IMG/VR virus record: IMGVR_UViG_3300012271_000034
Span: 1 to 34,573 of that record
Direction: 5' to 3' (one strand)
Length of the DNA: 34,573 nt
From: a virus
The translations under genes and the position numbers were made by a program. The notes below the pieces were generated by a model, which did not search any database, was not told the DNA's origin, and was given only the letters and a program-made list of their open reading frames with translations. Positions 1,113 through 34,167 of this stretch are shown here, one piece after another (position 1 is the stretch's first letter; each line of letters begins with the position of its first letter).

Positions 1113-1119
1113 TATTTAT
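1113..1119 (-). promoter_or_regulatory. Putative T4-type late promoter core ATAAATA
   Basis: The minus strand reads GATAAATA here, seven of eight matches to the T4 late promoter TATAAATA. It lies 25 nt from ATG 1087, the spacing also seen at 17143, 22075, 25538 and 28331. It overlaps the stop codon of the upstream UvsW-like gene. Confidence 0.5.
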
Positions 1120-3038
1120 CAAAGATTCACAGATTTAATTTGGTAAGGTAGTTCTACATCTTTATAAATTTTTAACCTTTCGTACATGTGTCTAATCATG
1201 AAATTATTGAAGTAGACCTTTCCGTCTCTCTTTAAAGAAAAATCATCTGTAAAATCTATGATTAATAATTTTGATTTCTCATGATGTTTTCTTAATCCTC
1301 TACCGATACTTTGTCTTACAATTACTTCTGATTTATATGATTCTGTAAAGAAGATTGAGAAGATCTTTTTCACATTAACTCCTGTGGAAAAAGTACCATA
1401 TGATGCTACAAGAATAACATTATCTCCTTGTTCCATTTTTCTCTTATATACTTCTCTAGTTTCTGTTGGAGTTGAACCATCGACATAATAAATTTCTCTC
1501 CCTCTATTTAAATCTCTTAATTTATTATAGAGTGCTTTACCATATGCAACTCTATGAAATAATACTAGAGAATTCTTTTTAGATGTGGATATAGTTTTAC
1601 AAACAAAGTCAAGACGTTGCTTGTTTTCTATAATATAATCTCTTTCAATATTATATAACCTTTTTGAATCAGCTGATTGAGATGCTTTAAAAAATGCTTC
1701 TCTAATTTTTTCAGGTGCATAATTTAATTTGATTACTTTAATTTCTACTGGAGTAATATGTCCTTTATCAATTAAGAATCGAGTACCAACTTCAGAAACT
1801 ACAGGTCCTGTTTGACTCATTAATGTTAAACGGTCAAGTGTCCCAGGCTTAGGGATTGTTCCTGATACTCCAAAGGTATAGTGGGTATGTTTACATTTCT
1901 GTAAAATTGTTTTGATTGAGTTCGCTTTCATTTTGTGGCAATTGGCAACGTTTAGTCCATTTGCTATATAATTATGATTTAAGCCATCTTCTGATTTTAT
2001 TCGAAGATTAAAAACTTCATCTTTATAATCTATTTTTTTAATTGATTTAATTTTCATAAAATAATCTTCTAAACTTAAAATTTCATCATCTTCAGTCAAT
2101 TGATCTGCTCTTTTATATTCACCTGAAATTAATTTTACTTTATGATTTCCGGTAATTTTTATTGTAGATCCGTTTTCCATTTCTATTTCATACATTTGAT
2201 TACCTTTTGATAAATTAGTATATACGAAATCAACTTCTTTAATTTCTTGTTTGAGTGTTCTATCATTAGTAGTATATACTAAATCTCCTGAATTAATTTC
2301 AGATATTTTCTTTTCCGAACCATCTGACATTGTAATTAAAGTATCTGGATGTAAACACTCATCAATATTAACAGCATCAAATTGTGCGAAAAATTCTTTA
2401 GGTTTTTTAACTAATGATTGATAAGTACCAACAACTATATTTGAACTCTTTTTAATTTTCTTACCTGAGTAAATTAATTGAATTTCATAATCAATTATCT
2501 TTGGGTCATTGTATTCATAAAAATCTCCATCTGCTTGTTCCACAAGAGTGACATTGGGAACTATCATTAAGATCTTTTCAAATTTTAATACTTTGATGAG
2601 ATATGAAAAAACCATAAATGTAATTAAGGTCTTTCCTGCAGAAGTAGCTAATTCACCTAGGCAAGATTTGTATTTTATTATTTTCCAAGCAGTTTCAACT
2701 TGATAATCTCTAGGTTGTAATGCATTTCCTTCGAATTGCTCAGTTACCCATGACTGGAAATCTTCTAATGAGATTCCTGAAAAATAAGAGGATAGGTTTT
2801 CAATTTCAAGTTCGAATTTGAATCTTTGACAAATATCGTAAACTTCTTTCCATAAACCAAAGGGTATAAGGTTCCCTTTGATAAATTTCACTTTACCATC
2901 CCATCCTGAATAGAATTTCTTCTTAAATGCCCAACCTTCAATTTGTTTCTCTAATGAGATATTGAGTTGGTCTATTTCAATTTGTGTAGCATCAACTATT
3001 TGTAGTAGTTTGTGCTCGTGTAAAACCTTTATTTTCAC
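1119..3038 (-). CDS. uvsW: UvsW-like DNA/RNA helicase containing a mini-intein
   Basis: 639 residues, of which 139 are an intein, leaving a 500-residue extein product close to T4 UvsW (about 500). UvsW is a superfamily 2 helicase that unwinds R-loops and branched DNA, helping switch T4 from origin- to recombination-dependent replication. Visible motifs: Walker A ELATSAGKT (129-137), motif II DECH split by the intein (D226 E227, then C367 H368), motif III SGT (392-394), and motif VI VRQSIGRGLR (574-583). Residues 1-100 fit the small N-terminal domain of UvsW. The gene is 30 nt downstream of the UvsY-like gene, the partner expected from T4. Without splicing the DECH box is interrupted and the helicase should be inactive. 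The family call rests on motifs, length and context. Confidence 0.93.
   Translation of the reverse strand: MKIKVLHEHKLLQIVDATQIEIDQLNISLEKQIEGWAFKKKFYSGWDGKVKFIKGNLIPFGLWKEVYDICQRFKFELEIENLSSYFSGISLEDFQSWVTEQFEGNALQPRDYQVETAWKIIKYKSCLGELATSAGKTLITFMVFSYLIKVLKFEKILMIVPNVTLVEQADGDFYEYNDPKIIDYEIQLIYSGKKIKKSSNIVVGTYQSLVKKPKEFFAQFDAVNIDECLHPDTLITMSDGSEKKISEINSGDLVYTTNDRTLKQEIKEVDFVYTNLSKGNQMYEIEMENGSTIKITGNHKVKLISGEYKRADQLTEDDEILSLEDYFMKIKSIKKIDYKDEVFNLRIKSEDGLNHNYIANGLNVANCHKMKANSIKTILQKCKHTHYTFGVSGTIPKPGTLDRLTLMSQTGPVVSEVGTRFLIDKGHITPVEIKVIKLNYAPEKIREAFFKASQSADSKRLYNIERDYIIENKQRLDFVCKTISTSKKNSLVLFHRVAYGKALYNKLRDLNRGREIYYVDGSTPTETREVYKRKMEQGDNVILVASYGTFSTGVNVKKIFSIFFTESYKSEVIVRQSIGRGLRKHHEKSKLLIIDFTDDFSLKRDGKVYFNNFMIRHMYERLKIYKDVELPYQIKSVNL
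1941..2357 (-). other. Mini-intein inserted in the DECH box of the UvsW-like helicase
   Basis: Residues C228-N366 of the helicase frame, 139 residues, interrupt the Walker B motif as DE|intein|CH. Hallmarks: nucleophile Cys1 in CLHPDTLITMSDG (block A), TGNHKV with the TxxH pattern (block B), VFNLRI...HNYIANGLNVAN (blocks F and G), terminal Asn, and Cys as the +1 extein residue. There is no room for a homing endonuclease, so this is a HINT splicing domain alone. The residue before the terminal Asn is Ala, not the usual His. The flanking residues rejoin as VNIDECHKMKA, a perfect helicase motif II, which supports precise in-frame insertion. Confidence 0.93.
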
Positions 3039-3527: not shown

Positions 3528-3770
3528 TTAAAAAAGATCTTTTGTTTGCTTTCTTGACGTTTGTGGACCTATCTCTCTCATCCTAACAGATCGATTTTGA
3601 GTGGCTTTAGGTTTTTTATTTAGATCGATGTCAATGCTACCTAAAGAATCAAGATCAGGTAGATCTGAGTCCCATTCGTTAATCAATTTGTATCTCTTCT
3701 GAGATAATTCAAGATCCCTCTCGAAATTTTCATTTTCTTCCAAAAATATGTCTATATTATTTTTATACAT
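3528..3770 (-). CDS. Small protein with possible C-terminal clamp-binding motif
   Basis: 80 residues of unknown family. The N-terminal half is acidic (many Glu/Asp, e.g. FLEENENFERDLE) and the C-terminal half is basic. The last six residues, QTKDLF, resemble the sliding-clamp-binding hexapeptide QLxDLF. C-terminal clamp-binding peptides are known on T4 gp33, gp55 and gp43, so this could be a replication or late-transcription accessory factor. The gene overlaps the end of the primase gene by 8 nt and abuts the UvsY-like gene, so it belongs to the replication/recombination operon. It does not resemble gp59 in length. Function is unassigned; the clamp link is an inference from six residues. Confidence 0.8.
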   Translation of the reverse strand: MYKNNIDIFLEENENFERDLELSQKRYKLINEWDSDLPDLDSLGSIDIDLNKKPKATQNRSVRMREIGPQTSRKQTKDLF

Positions 3771-4818
3771 ATATCAAGTCTAAAGCTTCGCTTGTAAAAT
3801 ATTTTTCAGCCTCTCTAAATAGAGGTTTCTTAATTTGACTGCTTAGAACTATAATATCAGCCCAATCTTTTAAGTCATAATCCCATAGTTCAAAATCAGA
3901 GATGAACTTTCTCCACATGAAAACCTTTTTTCCTAATTTGATTTTTTCAGCCATTTTTGTATAACCTGCTTTATCATTATCAAAAAAGTATCTCACGTTC
4001 GGATGCTCATCTAAGAATTCATCATTTAATCCAACTGAACTTTTTCCAATTGAATTTGGGTATAACCATGAATCTGATGCTCCTTCAAAAACTGTAACTC
4101 TCCTCTCAAATTGTACTGTAAGAAGATTATATAGTAAACTGATTTTATCTATACTATCAAACTCATATCCTTTGGGTTTATCCTCAGGAAAAAATTTGTC
4201 ATATATTTTTCCTAGCGGGTATTTTATATATTTCATTGTAGATTCGTACTTCGGATTGAAAGTTCTTGTTTGAAATCCAAGTACGTTTTTATCATCTAAC
4301 ATATTGAAGAAATATAAATTGCCTCTTTTAAATGCTAAATGATTTAATCTATGATGAAGTTTTTTCTTTGCAACATAAGGATGAGTAGGATATACTGGAG
4401 ATAATCCTAATTTATCAATGATTTTTTGTTTAGGGATTGCATACTTTTTTAATTCATCTATTTTCTTTTGAGAAATAGTATCAATATTTTTTGTAAGTCC
4501 CTGCTCAATATAATCATTAACAGTTTTCCTGATATTAATTCTTATATTAACATCGTCAATTTCTCTGTTATAGAAATCAAAAAAGTTAAGAATTGTAGTG
4601 TGCCAATCACAATTGTAACAATGAAAGTAGCCTGAACTAAAAAAGAAGTTTCCTCTTTTCTTAGAAAGCTTTTTGTCAGAATCTCCACATCTAGGACATG
4701 CAAATCTTAAAAAGTCTCTTCCTTGTTTTATACTTTGTTTCTCATAAGAGTCATGGTGTTCAACCAAAATCTCATGAAGTGTATTTTTTATTTCAGGTGT
4801 GTTATCTTTCTCAATCAT
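3763..4818 (-). CDS. 61: gp61-type DNA primase
   Basis: 351 residues (T4 gp61: 342). It would synthesise RNA primers on the lagging strand together with the replicative helicase. The N-terminal zinc ribbon is visible: CPRCGDS (C41, C44) and HCYNCDWH (C67, C70), matching CPVCGDS and HCYNCNYH in T4 gp61. A TOPRIM-like core follows, with the acidic VFEGASDSW near residue 243 and FFDNDKAG near 280, then GKKVFMW aligning with the T4 segment ERVMFW. The gene follows gp32 and is separated from it by a hairpin with a T-run, so some transcripts may stop there. The start was chosen at the ATG just after the terminator; no Shine-Dalgarno is present. Confidence 0.9.
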   Translation of the reverse strand: MIEKDNTPEIKNTLHEILVEHHDSYEKQSIKQGRDFLRFACPRCGDSDKKLSKKRGNFFFSSGYFHCYNCDWHTTILNFFDFYNREIDDVNIRINIRKTVNDYIEQGLTKNIDTISQKKIDELKKYAIPKQKIIDKLGLSPVYPTHPYVAKKKLHHRLNHLAFKRGNLYFFNMLDDKNVLGFQTRTFNPKYESTMKYIKYPLGKIYDKFFPEDKPKGYEFDSIDKISLLYNLLTVQFERRVTVFEGASDSWLYPNSIGKSSVGLNDEFLDEHPNVRYFFDNDKAGYTKMAEKIKLGKKVFMWRKFISDFELWDYDLKDWADIIVLSSQIKKPLFREAEKYFTSEALDLIYV

Positions 4819-28355: not shown

Positions 28356-28362
28356 TATTTAT
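28356..28362 (-). promoter_or_regulatory. Putative T4-type late promoter core ATAAATA
   Basis: The minus strand reads GAATAAATAATAAAAT, 24 nt before ATG 28331, overlapping the stop of the preceding gene. It is nearly identical to the copy before 25538. Confidence 0.55.
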
Positions 28363-31300
28363 TCAATTACTACGAATCCTTGTTTTATCGTTTCTTTGAA
28401 GTTTCCGTTTGAATCACTAAGATCCAATTTTAATATATATTCACCTCTTCTATTGAAGAAATGTGAAAAGATATTTTCAGTTAAAGTATAGGTACTTCCT
28501 GACTCAACTTCAGTTAATTCCCAATTGCCGGTTAATTGTTTCCCTGGCATTGTTGAATTATCATATGAGAATATTACTTGACAGAATTGAGGCAACTCTT
28601 TTCTTGTTTCAAATATTCTTAACTCACTCCAATTATAGTTTAATGTAATTGCAGGGGCATATTCATCACCTAAGATGTTTTCATATTTTATATATGACTC
28701 TTGAGATTCACTGAAAATATTTGAAGTTGCTTGAATCCTATTTACAGTGATTTCGTCTTCTTCATATAGAATATTCCAATTGAATCTTTTGAAATTAGGC
28801 AAATCAGAAGATAATAATTCCTGATATGCAATTTCTAAGTCTACTGCAGAATTACTAAACTCAATAGTATCACCTTTAACATCAAAAACATTTCTTAAAG
28901 TTTCAGATGAATATAAATCAGCATTGTATTCAGATAAAGCTTGAATAATAGTTCTCAATGCAGACTCTTTTAAAGGAGGATATGTTGCTACATTATATAC
29001 AAAATCAAAATTAAGTGGATTTTGTAACTCATTGATTGTAGATCTATTTGCTCCTGAATAAGCAATAGTATTATTTAAACTATTAATTGTTTCTATTTGT
29101 CTGGAAATAGTGACAGTATTACTACCTGAAGGAATTTTTAAATTAATAGTACCCTTTTCAATTAGATTATTAAAAAATGGGGAATCATTTATTTCTAATG
29201 TATTATTCCCTAGATTTATAAAATTAGTTGTATTGTCTAATTCTAATACTTTTTCTTCTAAAGAATAATAACTTACTTCTACTGAATCTCCGTTTACTAT
29301 GGAAGTAATCCAATTTATAGTTTGTGGATCTCCTGCAATAATAGTATAATCAGTATTTTCAATTAATTCAGTTCCATTTAAGATAATTTTAATCTCATCA
29401 TTAATAGTAGGTTCTCCAATTAAAATATTAGATCCATCATACTCTTTTGTAAATTCAATAAAGAATCCTCTTTTAGTTGTGAAATCAATTCCATTAAGAG
29501 CTGTAATATATCTGTTTGCATCTCTAGAAATAGTTAATAAAGTATTCCCGGGAGTATCTTTTATAGCAAGTAAATTACCTTCAGGATGATCCAATGGATT
29601 TGTTCTTATAAATTTATATTTATAATCAAATATCTCAGTAACAGGACCAACTCCTGGAACTTGAGTTGTTACTTCATAAGTTCTAGGAATTCTTTTCCCT
29701 ATTGTCATTTTTGCTCCAATATCTTCAACTGAATAGATTTCAAAAAATGCAGGAGAATCAGATGATAGTTTTACTCCATCCCATGTTTCATTTTGATAAA
29801 ACTGATTCCATGTTCTTAACCCTATATCTTTCCAGTTATAAGGATTATAGAAAATTGCATCATTTGTACCTTCCCACCATAAGTGATCTAACTCGTTCCA
29901 AAGAGCATTCTCAATGTCATTTAAAGTATAATTATATAAATCATTGTAGAATCTTGCATTTGAGTAATTCGCTTTATCAATTGAATTCCAAGTTGTGTCA
30001 GCATCTTCCCAGTTTAAATCACCCGTTAAGTTAACTGCCCATGTAAACCATGTATTTTCCCAGTCTCTATCAAAATCTTCCCAAGTATAATCAGTTCTAA
30101 ATGCTTTATGATTTGCAACAATTTCAGGATTCTTTTGTTCAACTTCTAAAACGTAATTCTCTGAAGTACTTGAATTAAAAGTATTATAAAGTCTCATATC
30201 AATATCATAAGTACCTTTATACGGTAATATAAGATTAATACTTTCATATTGTTGAACGTTACCTCTTAAATTATATGTCCACTCTTGCGGTGAGTCGTTA
30301 TCTACTCTCTTTGCAATAGTCCATTCTATTTCGTAGAAGTTTTCATATTTGATTTTATCCCAAGTAGTAAGTGTTCCATTAACTCCTTCATTTGCTTCAT
30401 TCCACTGAATTGCCATTTCATCCCACTCTATTTTAAAAGTAGTATTTGTTAAAGTTAAAGGACATCCAACTGGAGTATCTTCATCATCTGTAAGTAAATA
30501 TGAATCATCTACTTTATTAATAATAGATTCTAAAAATGTTTGTGTATATTTCGAATCTAAAATTATAGACTGATCTATAATATCTTCTTTAAGTTTATTA
30601 TATGGAGTTGTTGGATTTGGATTCCATGTTTCTAAAGGAATATCAAGTGCAGAATATGTATATGTAATTACAATAGCATCTGATTGCTGTAAAGTAAACG
30701 TATTAGAAGTCCAAATAATAGAATCTTTAGCTCCACTTAAAATATAATCAACTCCTTTAACAAAGAAATCATTTCCATTGACAGTTACATTTTCAACTTC
30801 AACTGCAATATTTTGTAATGGTATCTCATTGTTTAAAGCTGTATTATAAGTATTTTCTTGAACAGTAGGAACAACTAAATCTGCATCCTGTCTAACTATT
30901 GAATCGATTTCTATTAATAATTTATTTAAACTAATAATAAAACCTTGAGGCTCAGGATTCACATCTAGAGTTGCTCTTTTTCCAACATCAACTACATCTC
31001 TTTCATTTGTATCTGACCAAGTATTAATATCATATTTAGAAAAATAATTACCTTCTCCAGTAACCGAAATTATTCTTGCAGAAAGAGGTAGGAATTTAGA
31101 TTTTAATTTTTCTTTTAATCCTTGTAACTTTATTAGAATTTCTTCGTTAGAGAAATCAAAGGCATCTTCAACTAATGGTAATCCATACTCATCGAATTCT
31201 CCTTTTACAACTTTATTTAAATCATATGCTAAACCAAAGTTTGCTGTCTTTTTCCAGAATTTATTAGGAAGTACTTCTTCCTCTTTATTGAAAAATGGAT

Positions 31301-32171
31301 CTAATACTCCATCAAATTGATCCGCAACTGATTTGAATCTTAGCTTCCCGAAATTCTCAGAAGATGCATCAACATTCTCAAAGTATTCGTTTATTCTTAA
31401 TGCATCATATCCAAAGTATCTTATTGCTGTAATTAAACCTCTATAAGATCCTTGATAGTTTTTTAAATTTGCCCCATTTAAAAGCATCTCTTTTAACTTG
31501 GAATTAATAATTGTCCAATCAGGATATCCTTCTTTAATATCAACATCTCTGAAAATAAAGAAATCTTGTTGGTCAACTTCTACATCTTTATAAAAGTTAT
31601 TAATAAGGGTTCCTAATCTTTCATCTTCTTCTTCTACTTCAATGTATAATTCAATTTCGGCAATTAATTCTGAAGTATCAGTATCTTGATTATCTGCATA
31701 TATGTAAATAGTATTTCTGAAAGAACCTTCATCTCCTGTAGCAAATGATGCTTTTATTTTTATACCTTCACCATCAACAGCATTTGTAGTTGCAATTCCC
31801 GTAGTAGTTACTCCAGTAGTTCGTACATCATTATCCGTAGAATTAAATTGAGAAGGGCTTTCTGTAAATACTTTCAGTTCTCCTCTTTCTTCGAATGAAT
31901 AAAAATTCCATCTTTTATCTTCTTTGTCAGAAAATGTAGATCGAATAATTGTTTCTTCAGCAACTCCAGCAATATCTTGAGGTTGGCCGTACTTTGTCTC
32001 ACCATTTACTTCAAATATTTCATAAATGAAAAAGTTCAGTGAACTTATTAGAAATGTTGAAACTGTTGGTAAATAAAATGATCCTTTGTAAACACCGTCT
32101 TCTAATGTGAAGTTAGCATCATAACCATTTTTATCAAAAAATATTAACTTTTTATTGTCTAGAAAAGGCAT
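28359..32171 (-). CDS. Large baseplate-type protein, possible gp7 equivalent, with Trp octapeptide repeat
   Basis: 1270 residues, following gp25 and gp6 in the order where T4 has gp7 (1032 residues); that equivalence is positional only. N-terminal 200 residues are beta-type. Around 215-290 is a helical segment (DWTIINSKLKEMLLNGANLK; GLITAIRYFGYDALRINEYF). Residues about 580-800 are very tryptophan-rich, with four copies of W-(D/E/N)-(D/E)-x-(A/D)-x-x-W. PKD/Ig-like strand patterns occur before this (LILPYKGTYDIDMRLYNTFN) and at the C-terminus (FSHFFNRRGEYILKLDLSDS, ending GFVVIE). It would join wedge subunits or anchor fibres. The ATG overlaps the stop of the 81-residue gene by one base (TAATG). 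Confidence 0.88.
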   Translation of the reverse strand: MPFLDNKKLIFFDKNGYDANFTLEDGVYKGSFYLPTVSTFLISSLNFFIYEIFEVNGETKYGQPQDIAGVAEETIIRSTFSDKEDKRWNFYSFEERGELKVFTESPSQFNSTDNDVRTTGVTTTGIATTNAVDGEGIKIKASFATGDEGSFRNTIYIYADNQDTDTSELIAEIELYIEVEEEDERLGTLINNFYKDVEVDQQDFFIFRDVDIKEGYPDWTIINSKLKEMLLNGANLKNYQGSYRGLITAIRYFGYDALRINEYFENVDASSENFGKLRFKSVADQFDGVLDPFFNKEEEVLPNKFWKKTANFGLAYDLNKVVKGEFDEYGLPLVEDAFDFSNEEILIKLQGLKEKLKSKFLPLSARIISVTGEGNYFSKYDINTWSDTNERDVVDVGKRATLDVNPEPQGFIISLNKLLIEIDSIVRQDADLVVPTVQENTYNTALNNEIPLQNIAVEVENVTVNGNDFFVKGVDYILSGAKDSIIWTSNTFTLQQSDAIVITYTYSALDIPLETWNPNPTTPYNKLKEDIIDQSIILDSKYTQTFLESIINKVDDSYLLTDDEDTPVGCPLTLTNTTFKIEWDEMAIQWNEANEGVNGTLTTWDKIKYENFYEIEWTIAKRVDNDSPQEWTYNLRGNVQQYESINLILPYKGTYDIDMRLYNTFNSSTSENYVLEVEQKNPEIVANHKAFRTDYTWEDFDRDWENTWFTWAVNLTGDLNWEDADTTWNSIDKANYSNARFYNDLYNYTLNDIENALWNELDHLWWEGTNDAIFYNPYNWKDIGLRTWNQFYQNETWDGVKLSSDSPAFFEIYSVEDIGAKMTIGKRIPRTYEVTTQVPGVGPVTEIFDYKYKFIRTNPLDHPEGNLLAIKDTPGNTLLTISRDANRYITALNGIDFTTKRGFFIEFTKEYDGSNILIGEPTINDEIKIILNGTELIENTDYTIIAGDPQTINWITSIVNGDSVEVSYYSLEEKVLELDNTTNFINLGNNTLEINDSPFFNNLIEKGTINLKIPSGSNTVTISRQIETINSLNNTIAYSGANRSTINELQNPLNFDFVYNVATYPPLKESALRTIIQALSEYNADLYSSETLRNVFDVKGDTIEFSNSAVDLEIAYQELLSSDLPNFKRFNWNILYEEDEITVNRIQATSNIFSESQESYIKYENILGDEYAPAITLNYNWSELRIFETRKELPQFCQVIFSYDNSTMPGKQLTGNWELTEVESGSTYTLTENIFSHFFNRRGEYILKLDLSDSNGNFKETIKQGFVVIE
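29877..30425 (-). repeat. Four dispersed tryptophan octapeptide repeats in a baseplate-type protein
   Basis: Four exact 24-nt units encode W-(D/E/N)-(D/E)-x-(A/D)-x-x-W: WDEMAIQW (30402-30425), WEDFDRDW (30060-30083), WEDADTTW (29988-30011) and WNELDHLW (29877-29900). Related phrases WKDIGLRTW and TWDGV lie just after. It is a protein-level repeat; the DNA copies are diverged. Confidence 0.65.
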
Positions 32172-32416
32172 TAATTAAAATCTCTATAATTTTTAGGTAT
32201 TGTAAAGTTCCAAAATGCCTTTAATTTTTTAGGGAGAGCTATAATTTCAGTAATCATAGGTTCTAACATCTCAATAAATCCAGCAATATTTTTGTTCTTT
32301 AATAAATATCCAGAAATTGAGTTCTTGATTACTTTTCCTTCGTAAGCATACCCAATATTCTTTATATTGTTATTTATTTTACCTGATATTCCGTAAAGTT
32401 TTTCTTCTGTTCTCAT
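32171..32416 (-). CDS. Hypothetical 81-residue protein between gp6 and the 1270-residue protein
   Basis: 81 residues, basic overall, with N-terminal MRTEEKLYGISGKINNNIKN and a hydrophobic C-terminal part (GFIEMLEPMITEIIALPKKL) that could be an amphipathic helix. No family recognised. It is locked into the baseplate operon: its ATG overlaps the gp6 stop by 4 nt, and its stop overlaps the next ATG. A small structural or assembly factor for the baseplate is plausible from position, nothing more. Confidence 0.8.
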   Translation of the reverse strand: MRTEEKLYGISGKINNNIKNIGYAYEGKVIKNSISGYLLKNKNIAGFIEMLEPMITEIIALPKKLKAFWNFTIPKNYRDFN

Positions 32417-34167
32417 ATGTCCTTGCCTTCTTTTGATTGTCTTGAAATTCTTGACTGTAGACTTTCCTCAATTTCTTGAGCAATTACTACATTAATTGAA
32501 CTTGTTTTATTTAATTCAGGGAATTCTTCATAAAACTGTCCAAATCTATCATTCCATCCACCTCTTATAATTGGCAATTCATTTTGACCGATTATAATAT
32601 CTCCGAAATCATCTAATCCTAATCTAGGATCTTCATTGTTTTCAAGAGAAATTCTTTCTTTAACTAAAGTGTTACCTTGAACTCTTTCGTTAAAATAAAA
32701 TCCATTTCTTAAAGCAGCTTCATTTCTTTCTGAAACAAACTCAACATTTACAGAATCAATTTTATCAATATCTTCTAGTAAATTAATGATATCTGATTTA
32801 GGCATAATATCTCTTCTTCTTGTTTCTAAGAAATAATCTGATAATTGTGCAACTATTTCAGATCTTAAATCGTTATAGTTATATCCTTTGAATACTTTTA
32901 AAATAATATTTAATCCATATCTTCTAATAATAGGATTTACAAAAACTAATTCTGATTGCATTACCTGCTGGCCACTTTCTCTAATCGATGCTTTTAAGTA
33001 ATCAATTTCTTGTTGCTCCAAAACAAAATTAGATTCAGATGTTGTGAAGTAATTTGTATCAGTAGTTAATTTTTTTCTAATATCAGGAATCAGAAATAAG
33101 TAGATTACATTGTCGTCATCCAAGTACTCGTCTTGATAAGTAGAATAAGCGTCTACGAAAGAGAACCAGTTTAGTTTCGACAGATAATACACGTATTTCT
33201 CTGGGTTCGCCAGAACGTTTGTAGTACTACCTCTATTCGCTATAAGTTTTGTGAACTCAGGATTCTCTGCATTTGTACCAAATAATATTTTCTCTCTTAA
33301 TGAAACTCTAAAAACTTCATTTGGATTAACATCATTCCCTAAAGAATCAGTCATATCTTCTTCCCATTCGAATTGAATTTCTTTTGGGTTTCTATCAATG
33401 TTTCCATTAAATCCGATATTTTCTAAATATTCAATTTCAATATCAGATCCTCGAGGAGGAATATTTCCGAAATTACCATTACCGAAATAAACATCTATTC
33501 CACCTGCAATCCCAGTTTTAACTAAACAACCAAATCCATTTCTTGGAATGTCATAAAGGAAGTCATATATTTTATAAGTATTTCCATTTACTCTCACTTG
33601 AACGTACTGGTTATCAATTTGCTGTCCTGATGAAGCTTGTAAGTTAAAAGATTGCAATTGTCTTCCATCTCCTGTAAAATTTTGTGATTGAAATCTACCT
33701 TGAAGTAATGGGTAGTTTAATGGGTTAGTTGAATCTGTATAAATTCTTTTTGGTCTATTGTTTAAAATAGTATAAAATATTTCATTGTTTAGACATTTTA
33801 AGACAGGATTCTTACCGAAGTTAACAAATGACCCTGCTACTTCATTTTGACCACCTGGGACAAATTGAAACTGTACTGATCCTTTCGCTGCATCAACTCT
33901 TTTAGGATTATGTCCTGCTAATCTTGAAATACCATAAATAGATGAATCTCTTTGAGCAGTATAGATATTAAATTCAGTAACAGCATCCTCAAAATATAAA
34001 AAGTTCAAGTTAATAATTTCTTGGATAGTTTCTAATATTTGTAAATAAGGTGATGCCTTAGTAAAAACTACTTTTGATTGATTGTAAGTTTTTGTTAGAT
34101 ACTGGAATGTATCAACTATCATTGATTCAAAAGTAATTCTTGCAGTATTTAAAATTTTAAATTTCAT
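32413..34167 (-). CDS. 6: gp6-like baseplate wedge protein
   Basis: 584 residues (T4 gp6: 660). gp6 forms the ring of heterodimeric wedges around the central hub of the contractile-tail baseplate and belongs to the baseplate J-like superfamily. Visible: N-terminal helical region (SMIVDTFQYLTKTYNQSKVV; SPYLQILETIQEIINLNFLY), the phrase RDSSIYGISRLAGHNPKRV typical of gp6-type proteins, a central beta domain (VRVNGNTYKIYDFLYDIPRN; DVYFGNGNFGNIPPRGSDIE, the latter characteristic of J-like proteins) and C-terminal YNYNDLRSEIVAQLSDYFLE with RRRDIMPKSDIINLLEDID. The preceding gene is gp25, its normal partner. Recognition is by pattern and context. Confidence 0.87.
   Translation of the reverse strand: MKFKILNTARITFESMIVDTFQYLTKTYNQSKVVFTKASPYLQILETIQEIINLNFLYFEDAVTEFNIYTAQRDSSIYGISRLAGHNPKRVDAAKGSVQFQFVPGGQNEVAGSFVNFGKNPVLKCLNNEIFYTILNNRPKRIYTDSTNPLNYPLLQGRFQSQNFTGDGRQLQSFNLQASSGQQIDNQYVQVRVNGNTYKIYDFLYDIPRNGFGCLVKTGIAGGIDVYFGNGNFGNIPPRGSDIEIEYLENIGFNGNIDRNPKEIQFEWEEDMTDSLGNDVNPNEVFRVSLREKILFGTNAENPEFTKLIANRGSTTNVLANPEKYVYYLSKLNWFSFVDAYSTYQDEYLDDDNVIYLFLIPDIRKKLTTDTNYFTTSESNFVLEQQEIDYLKASIRESGQQVMQSELVFVNPIIRRYGLNIILKVFKGYNYNDLRSEIVAQLSDYFLETRRRDIMPKSDIINLLEDIDKIDSVNVEFVSERNEAALRNGFYFNERVQGNTLVKERISLENNEDPRLGLDDFGDIIIGQNELPIIRGGWNDRFGQFYEEFPELNKTSSINVVIAQEIEESLQSRISRQSKEGKDI

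Follow-up and report, generated by a model that had tools for sequence, protein, structure and literature searches.

The window, a stretch of 34,573 nucleotides from a virus (IMG/VR record IMGVR_UViG_3300012271_000034), carries towards its 3' end, on the minus strand, a gene for a 1270-residue protein with 27 Trp and, upstream of it, a gene for a gp6-like baseplate wedge subunit (table 1). The original prediction, made from the sequence alone, described four units of the form W-(D/E/N)-(D/E)-x-(A/D)-x-x-W in this protein, and exactly four are found, at residues 583, 697, 721, and 758. A fifth W-x6-W, which had been missed, starts at residue 704 (WENTWFTW, 30039-30062); its first Trp is the last of the 697 unit, so that the period is seven and W697-W704-W711 form a heptad. 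That no family name is known remains correct for the motif, and a literature search yielded no description of the Trp signature among the listings retrieved. The protein itself matches phrog_28177, a family of unknown function (hmmscan E 2.7e-20, residues 109-398 on profile positions 68-338 of 1016), and the homologues inspected in annotated phage isolates are labelled hypothetical or only numbered.

Table 1. Features of the wedge and module genes in the window, in order of translation.
Feature	Position	Strand	Basis
Neighbour gene, baseplate wedge subunit, gp6-like	32413..34167	-	phrog_219 E 7e-19
Baseplate-operon protein with Trp module, 1270 aa, phrog_28177 relative	28359..32171	-	ORF
Conserved helical domain, ~residues 184-390, candidate gp7/gpI-like wedge domain	31002..31622	-	tblastn, alignment A3
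Predicted sandwich strand before first Trp string, residues 568-576	30444..30470	-	E381-389, model 2
Trp unit W583-DEMAIQ-W590, opens first Trp string, between two predicted sandwich strands	30402..30425	-	sequence
Trp unit at W590 (WNEAN)	30390..30404	-	helix 590-594, model 2 only
Trp unit at W604 (WDKI), closes first Trp string	30351..30362	-	helix 604-607, both models
Rest of predicted PKD/FN3-like sandwich strands, residues 612-679	30135..30338	-	pLDDT 86-91 per ten-residue block
Trp triple W697-W704-W711, second Trp string, after sandwich	30039..30083	-	conservation
Motif unit at residue 697	30060-30083	-	sequence
Trp unit WEDADTTW (721-728), few relatives	29988..30011	-	W721 8/52, W728 11/52
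Trp unit WNELDHLW (758-765), unconserved at its alignment position	29877..29900	-	W758 1/52
W780-W788-W797 stretch	29781..29834	-	aligned with family's PYxWxNLxxxxxWDDxxHLxWD; W 19, 20, 24 of 52
C-terminal PKD-like domain, residues 1209-1261	28389..28547	-	Pfam PKD E 4.6e-4, 20.6 bits

Within the single protein the five W-x6-W pairs compare with a shuffled mean of 0.57, and none of 5000 shuffles reached five. In the Trp-dense part of the protein, residues 560-830, shuffling gave a mean of 0.98, and eight of 5000 shuffles reached five; with any spacing from 1 to 30 allowed, at least five pairs occurred in 23 of 5000 whole-protein and 167 of 5000 region shuffles. The full motif had a shuffled mean of 0.0066 and none of 20000 shuffles reached four, a figure to be read with the motif having been derived from the same four units. 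Among the 19 other window ORFs examined, one (3763-4818) has a single W-x6-W. Taken alone, the protein is thus moderate evidence for a repeat.

The homologues provide much more. A tblastn search of 50,697 phage records matched 29. The matches are confined to residues 137-430 in all but two, LR756500 and Flavobacterium phage MaF61, where they run into the Trp region; with that region alone as query, these two were the only matches at E up to 10. Scanning viral contigs with the single protein recovered one near-identical contig only, and four alignment-based scans, in which contigs overlap, gave 24, the best 80 of 88, 65, and 76 loci. All 231 of the loci numbered L014 to L244 contain an ORF matching the module, and 52 are non-redundant at 92% identity. 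The window was substituted for its near-copy L014 in the 52-row column counts; in the family pair shuffles L014 stands for the window. W617 (four scans) and W583 (one) were included in the scan patterns, and these two columns are therefore partly ascertained, whereas W590, W604, W697, W704, and W711 lay outside them. Two loci cut at the 5' end of the gene (L058 and L181) were omitted from alignment A9.

Sequence identity to the window protein over residues 188-735 is just 28-37% in 49 homologues; Trp is nevertheless found in 46 of 52 rows at W583, 47 at W590, 50 at W604, 48 at W697, 47 at W704, and 50 at W711, and in 52/52 at W617, a column in the scan patterns. The 52 proteins total 180 W-x6-W pairs, whereas 200 shuffles gave 36.3 on average and never more than 51. 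Across the family the excess over chance is overwhelming, and the homologues settle that the repeat is genuine and conserved. Spacing is likewise maintained: it is seven between W583 and W590 in 43 of the 44 rows with both Trps, seven between W704 and W711 in 47/47, and between W697 and W704 seven in 33, eight in nine, and longer in three of 45 rows. The distance from W590 to W604, on the other hand, ranges from 10 to 175 residues with both Trps mostly kept, and we conclude that these Trps flank an insertion site. In three relatives (L060, L201, and L181) the insertion at this place has repeats of a G-Y...P-T/S type; residues 677-740 of L060 match a neck-protein (Hc2) PHROG, and cyanophage neck proteins match in the insertion.

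Conservation does not extend to the units at 721 and 758 (W721 8/52, W728 11/52, W758 1/52). The latter, WNELDHLW, resembles in the alignment a PYxW..WDDxxHLxW stretch of the family. Stretches 758-766 and 780-797, within residues 739-806 (29754-29957), may be a duplicated unit that is single in relatives; the similarity of 739-772 and 773-806 is weak, its score being reached by 29 of 1000 shuffles. A VNG/LNG...DY pattern is present both in residues 457-508 (30648-30803) and in 929-972 (29256-29387), which look alike by eye.

The predicted motif itself needs revision. D/E/N after Trp is common to the conserved units from W583 to W704 (W617 left aside); the A/D proposed at +4 is unconserved, and position +3, absent from that motif, is conserved as hydrophobic (42/46 rows at W583, 46/47 at W590, 49/50 at W604, 32/48 at W697, and 44/47 at W704). 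S, T, D, N, or G precedes the Trp in 32/46, 35/47, 48/50, 39/48, and 21/47 rows at the same five positions; before W704 the commonest residue is K (18/47), which is non-capping. Judged from these columns, the repeat would be better defined as [S/T/D/N]-W-[D/E/N]-[D/E/N/S]-hydrophobic. Three residues past W711, P is found in 48/50 rows.

Two AlphaFold models were built, the first of residues 560-830 (32 alignment rows, mean pLDDT 56.8, pTM 0.44) and the second of residues 188-735 (50 rows, mean pLDDT 62.3, pTM 0.36). In both, a helical turn starts at W583, W604, W697, W704, and W721; further turns start at W590 in model 2 only and at W728 in model 1 only, and at W711 in neither. Block pLDDT for these turns is low to middling, at ~40-70, and we regard the turns as low-confidence predictions. 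The original prediction had looked to unrelated conformations of the four segments as evidence against a repeat; instead, a helical turn is predicted to start at 583, 697, and 721 alike, while that near 758 departs from the rule, beginning three residues late in model 1 (model 2 ends at 735). A coiled coil was considered, given the heptad-like hydrophobic positions 1, 4, and 8, but was rejected: the modelled string helices have at most six residues, and P, G, and S are common after +3.

Between the two Trp strings, the models confidently predict a β-sandwich of PKD/FN3-like type, with strands at ~568-576 and 612-679 in both. Compared by VIA-align, the sandwich of model 2 matches 4jrw_A with Z 10.1 and rmsd 2.1 over 85 aligned residues, starting at about window residue 395; several PKD domains score at Z ~10, and FN3 and other sandwiches fall within about one Z unit. 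In the predicted arrangement, the W583/W590/W604 string lies between two sandwich strands and the W697/W704/W711 string follows the last. The fold is thus shared with PKD domains such as that of collagenase ColG (4jrw), to which the window sandwich would add Trp strings between strands and after the last one. A placement of the first string in the A-B loop was dropped, since the VIA ranges start near residue 395 and an earlier strand may join the sandwich. By sequence, six of 32 family members have a Pfam PKD match within the Trp region, the best at E 0.025, and the C-terminal PKD-like domain of the window protein, at 20.6 bits, stays below the curated Pfam cut-off of 23.5.

For the conserved helical domain, model 2 covers residues 188-397 with 21 ten-residue blocks, of which 18 have pLDDT of 62-87. 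A viral structure library returned a PTm5 protein, further uncharacterised phage proteins, and a 951-residue entry that may, judging from its length, be PAU gp21. The sandwich dominates what Foldseek and VIA list for the models; no baseplate protein is among the listed PDB rows, which makes them uninformative for a wedge fold. The whole protein had no match in a PDB sequence search at E up to 1, and PDB profile searches with alignments A4 and A3 gave chance-level matches only.

In the six conserved Trp columns pooled (312 cells) there are 288 W, eight I, eight F, three L, two M, one Y, and two gaps; all 22 non-gap replacements are hydrophobic. Thirteen of the 22 are I, L, or M, ten of them in just two rows, L197 and L181. 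The former has exchanged all six Trps for I, F, or L, its I..F and I..I..L keeping the spacing of seven; the latter has lost all six, replaced by I, L, or F, in a less sure alignment (spacings 8, 11, and 7). These two rows account for 12 of the 22 replacements, and among the other ten, aromatic residues prevail (six F and one Y, beside two M and one L). Because every replacement is hydrophobic, and because a relative without these Trps retains the spacing with I, F, and L, hydrophobic anchoring appears likelier than sugar binding.

A wedge gene directly precedes the module gene, mostly by ~250 bases, in 49 of the 52 non-redundant loci, a gene order that supports the earlier designation of the product as baseplate-type. 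Of the three other loci, two (L058 and L181) break off at the module gene; the third, L197, has no wedge match in the 1.5 kb covered upstream. The stretches examined of LR756500, pT24, MA9V-1, PAU, and PTm1 also match the wedge profile, which was made from five aligned proteins and which four of these phages helped to build; in pT24 the wedge gene is downstream of the homologue. No wedge-profile match was found in the stretches of MaF61 (17 kb), Lak-B6, and four huge phages. The module gene thus sits in the gp7/gpI position.

Membership of the gp7/gpI family is, by contrast, unproven at the level of sequence. In a profile comparison of 29 family rows (L046, L052, and L060 left out) with 11 gpI rows, the score was 19.4 (E 0.064, not significant), set against a maximum of 18.35 in 40 column shuffles, 21.0 for a control, T4 gp10 (E 0.074), and an E of 0.16 for T4 gp7. 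None of eight members matched Tail_P2_I. In the comparison, KR..L...GS..A..FGY..EY of the family is aligned with KR..I...GT..A..LGY..EW of gpI. With T4 gp7, P2 gpI, and the gp7-like part of Afp12, Pvc12, and Alg12, the module protein shares its place after a gp6/gpJ-like wedge gene; unlike gpI, it is much longer and has predicted sandwich domains and Trp strings. Passages of the account of AlgoCIS describe the gp7-like part of Alg12 as lateral, flexible, and fibre-binding, and term the gp7-like part a hot spot of evolutionary re-engineering in that related contractile system (PMC8894135).

The helical domain is more widespread than the Trp module. Approximately residues 110-430 are shared with PAU gp21 (Sphingomonas phage), with pT24 and PTm1 (Tenacibaculum), with MA9V-1 (Chryseobacterium), and likewise with Prevotella Lak-B6 and huge uncultured phages. 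Nine of the 11 helical-domain relatives from the phage collection have no W-x6-W, so that the module is dispensable for the core role of the protein; the exceptions are LR756500 and MaF61, whose homologue has four W-x6-W pairs. In a tree of the helical domain (38 rows), separating rows with and without the module needs two changes, with a single change also compatible with the tree; the Trp group was picked by module and includes L197, which lost its Trps. Most carriers are uncultivated contractile-tailed phages, MaF61 being a cultured myovirus of Flavobacterium sp. B330 with a contractile tail of ~170 nm (PMC13269007). Its homologue, ORF133, has Trps at W439/W446 and W551/W558/W565; the annotation of nearby genes includes a neck, a sliding-clamp, and a 'peptidase/plate' protein, and no wedge is adjacent by profile. 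The Lak-B6 homologue (L012) has 124 aa in table 11 and 1827 aa if TAG is translated, which points to recoding of that stop codon.

How might these segments work? We give about an even chance to the reading that they are hydrophobic anchors, and not a carbohydrate site, that pin a domain and its inserts to the baseplate. Each unit would be a short, N-capped helical turn presenting the Trp and the +3 residue on one face, with units succeeding one another mostly at a spacing of seven. The strings would be packed against the sandwich, against one another, or against an adjacent subunit of the baseplate, and this packing would hold the sandwich domain and the inserts that it carries. A peripheral location and a fibre-holding role are inferred from a related contractile system, in which the outer gp7-part carries tail fibres. 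The reading builds on the modelled turns and on what is directly observed, namely conservation, the replacement pattern, the place around the sandwich, and gene order; the variable W590-W604 distance with its Trps kept is as expected for anchors flanking an insertion site.

A rather unlikely alternative, though the best of those considered, is that the strings act as inter-subunit clasps lying along a partner, be it a wedge neighbour or a fibre adaptor, in the manner of short linear motifs. Strings that fold poorly alone next to a well-predicted sandwich are as expected if the partner orders them, and a similar tandem at spacing eight occurs far downstream in longer relatives (L026 1375-1383, L060 1470-1478); low pLDDT, however, also follows from alignments as shallow as those used. 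We consider improbable the proposal, raised in the original prediction, of an aromatic ladder or platform of Trps, which would here bind host-surface carbohydrate. Trp is dense, the replacements outside the two divergent rows are mostly aromatic, and the best Foldseek partners include several glycoside-hydrolase entries, a number of them from Bacteroides, in short alignments that presumably cover the sandwich only. Trp-rich carbohydrate-binding platforms, too, have many Trps near a β-sandwich; yet here one relative keeps the pattern with I, F, and L in place of all six Trps (a second similarly, if its alignment is right), the conserved hydrophobic +3 beside the Trps fits burial, and the gene adjoins a wedge gene, a tail-fibre-type gene lying elsewhere in the window. 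The ladder is thus disfavoured by the replacements at the six linker Trps. A merely Trp-rich linker with chance spacing is very improbable, since the frequency of five-pair region shuffles with spacing left free is outweighed by six columns in which 46-50 of 52 rows keep Trp, for the most part with constant spacing, and by the excess of family pairs; chance composition is refuted for these columns and may still account for the 721 and 758 units.

If hydrophobic anchoring is the correct reading, a conserved and recognisable anchoring module at a variable insertion site would aid the annotation of such proteins in metagenomes and would mark the sites at which the arm accepts further domains. MaF61, as a cultured carrier reported in its description to be contractile-tailed, makes the idea testable (PMC13269007). 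We regard as doubtful, and offer as speculation, a wider view in which the S/T-W-D-E-hydrophobic turn would be an undescribed, portable 'Trp-turn' clasp. Repeated in tandem every seven or eight residues, it would let large contractile phages clip peripheral domains and fibres to gp7-type wedge arms, with an insertion hot spot between two anchors.

Elsewhere in the window, a DNA helicase gene (phrog_16) lies at 1119-3038 on the minus strand; residues 222-321 of its product match Pfam Intein_splicing and Hint, pointing to an intein within the helicase.
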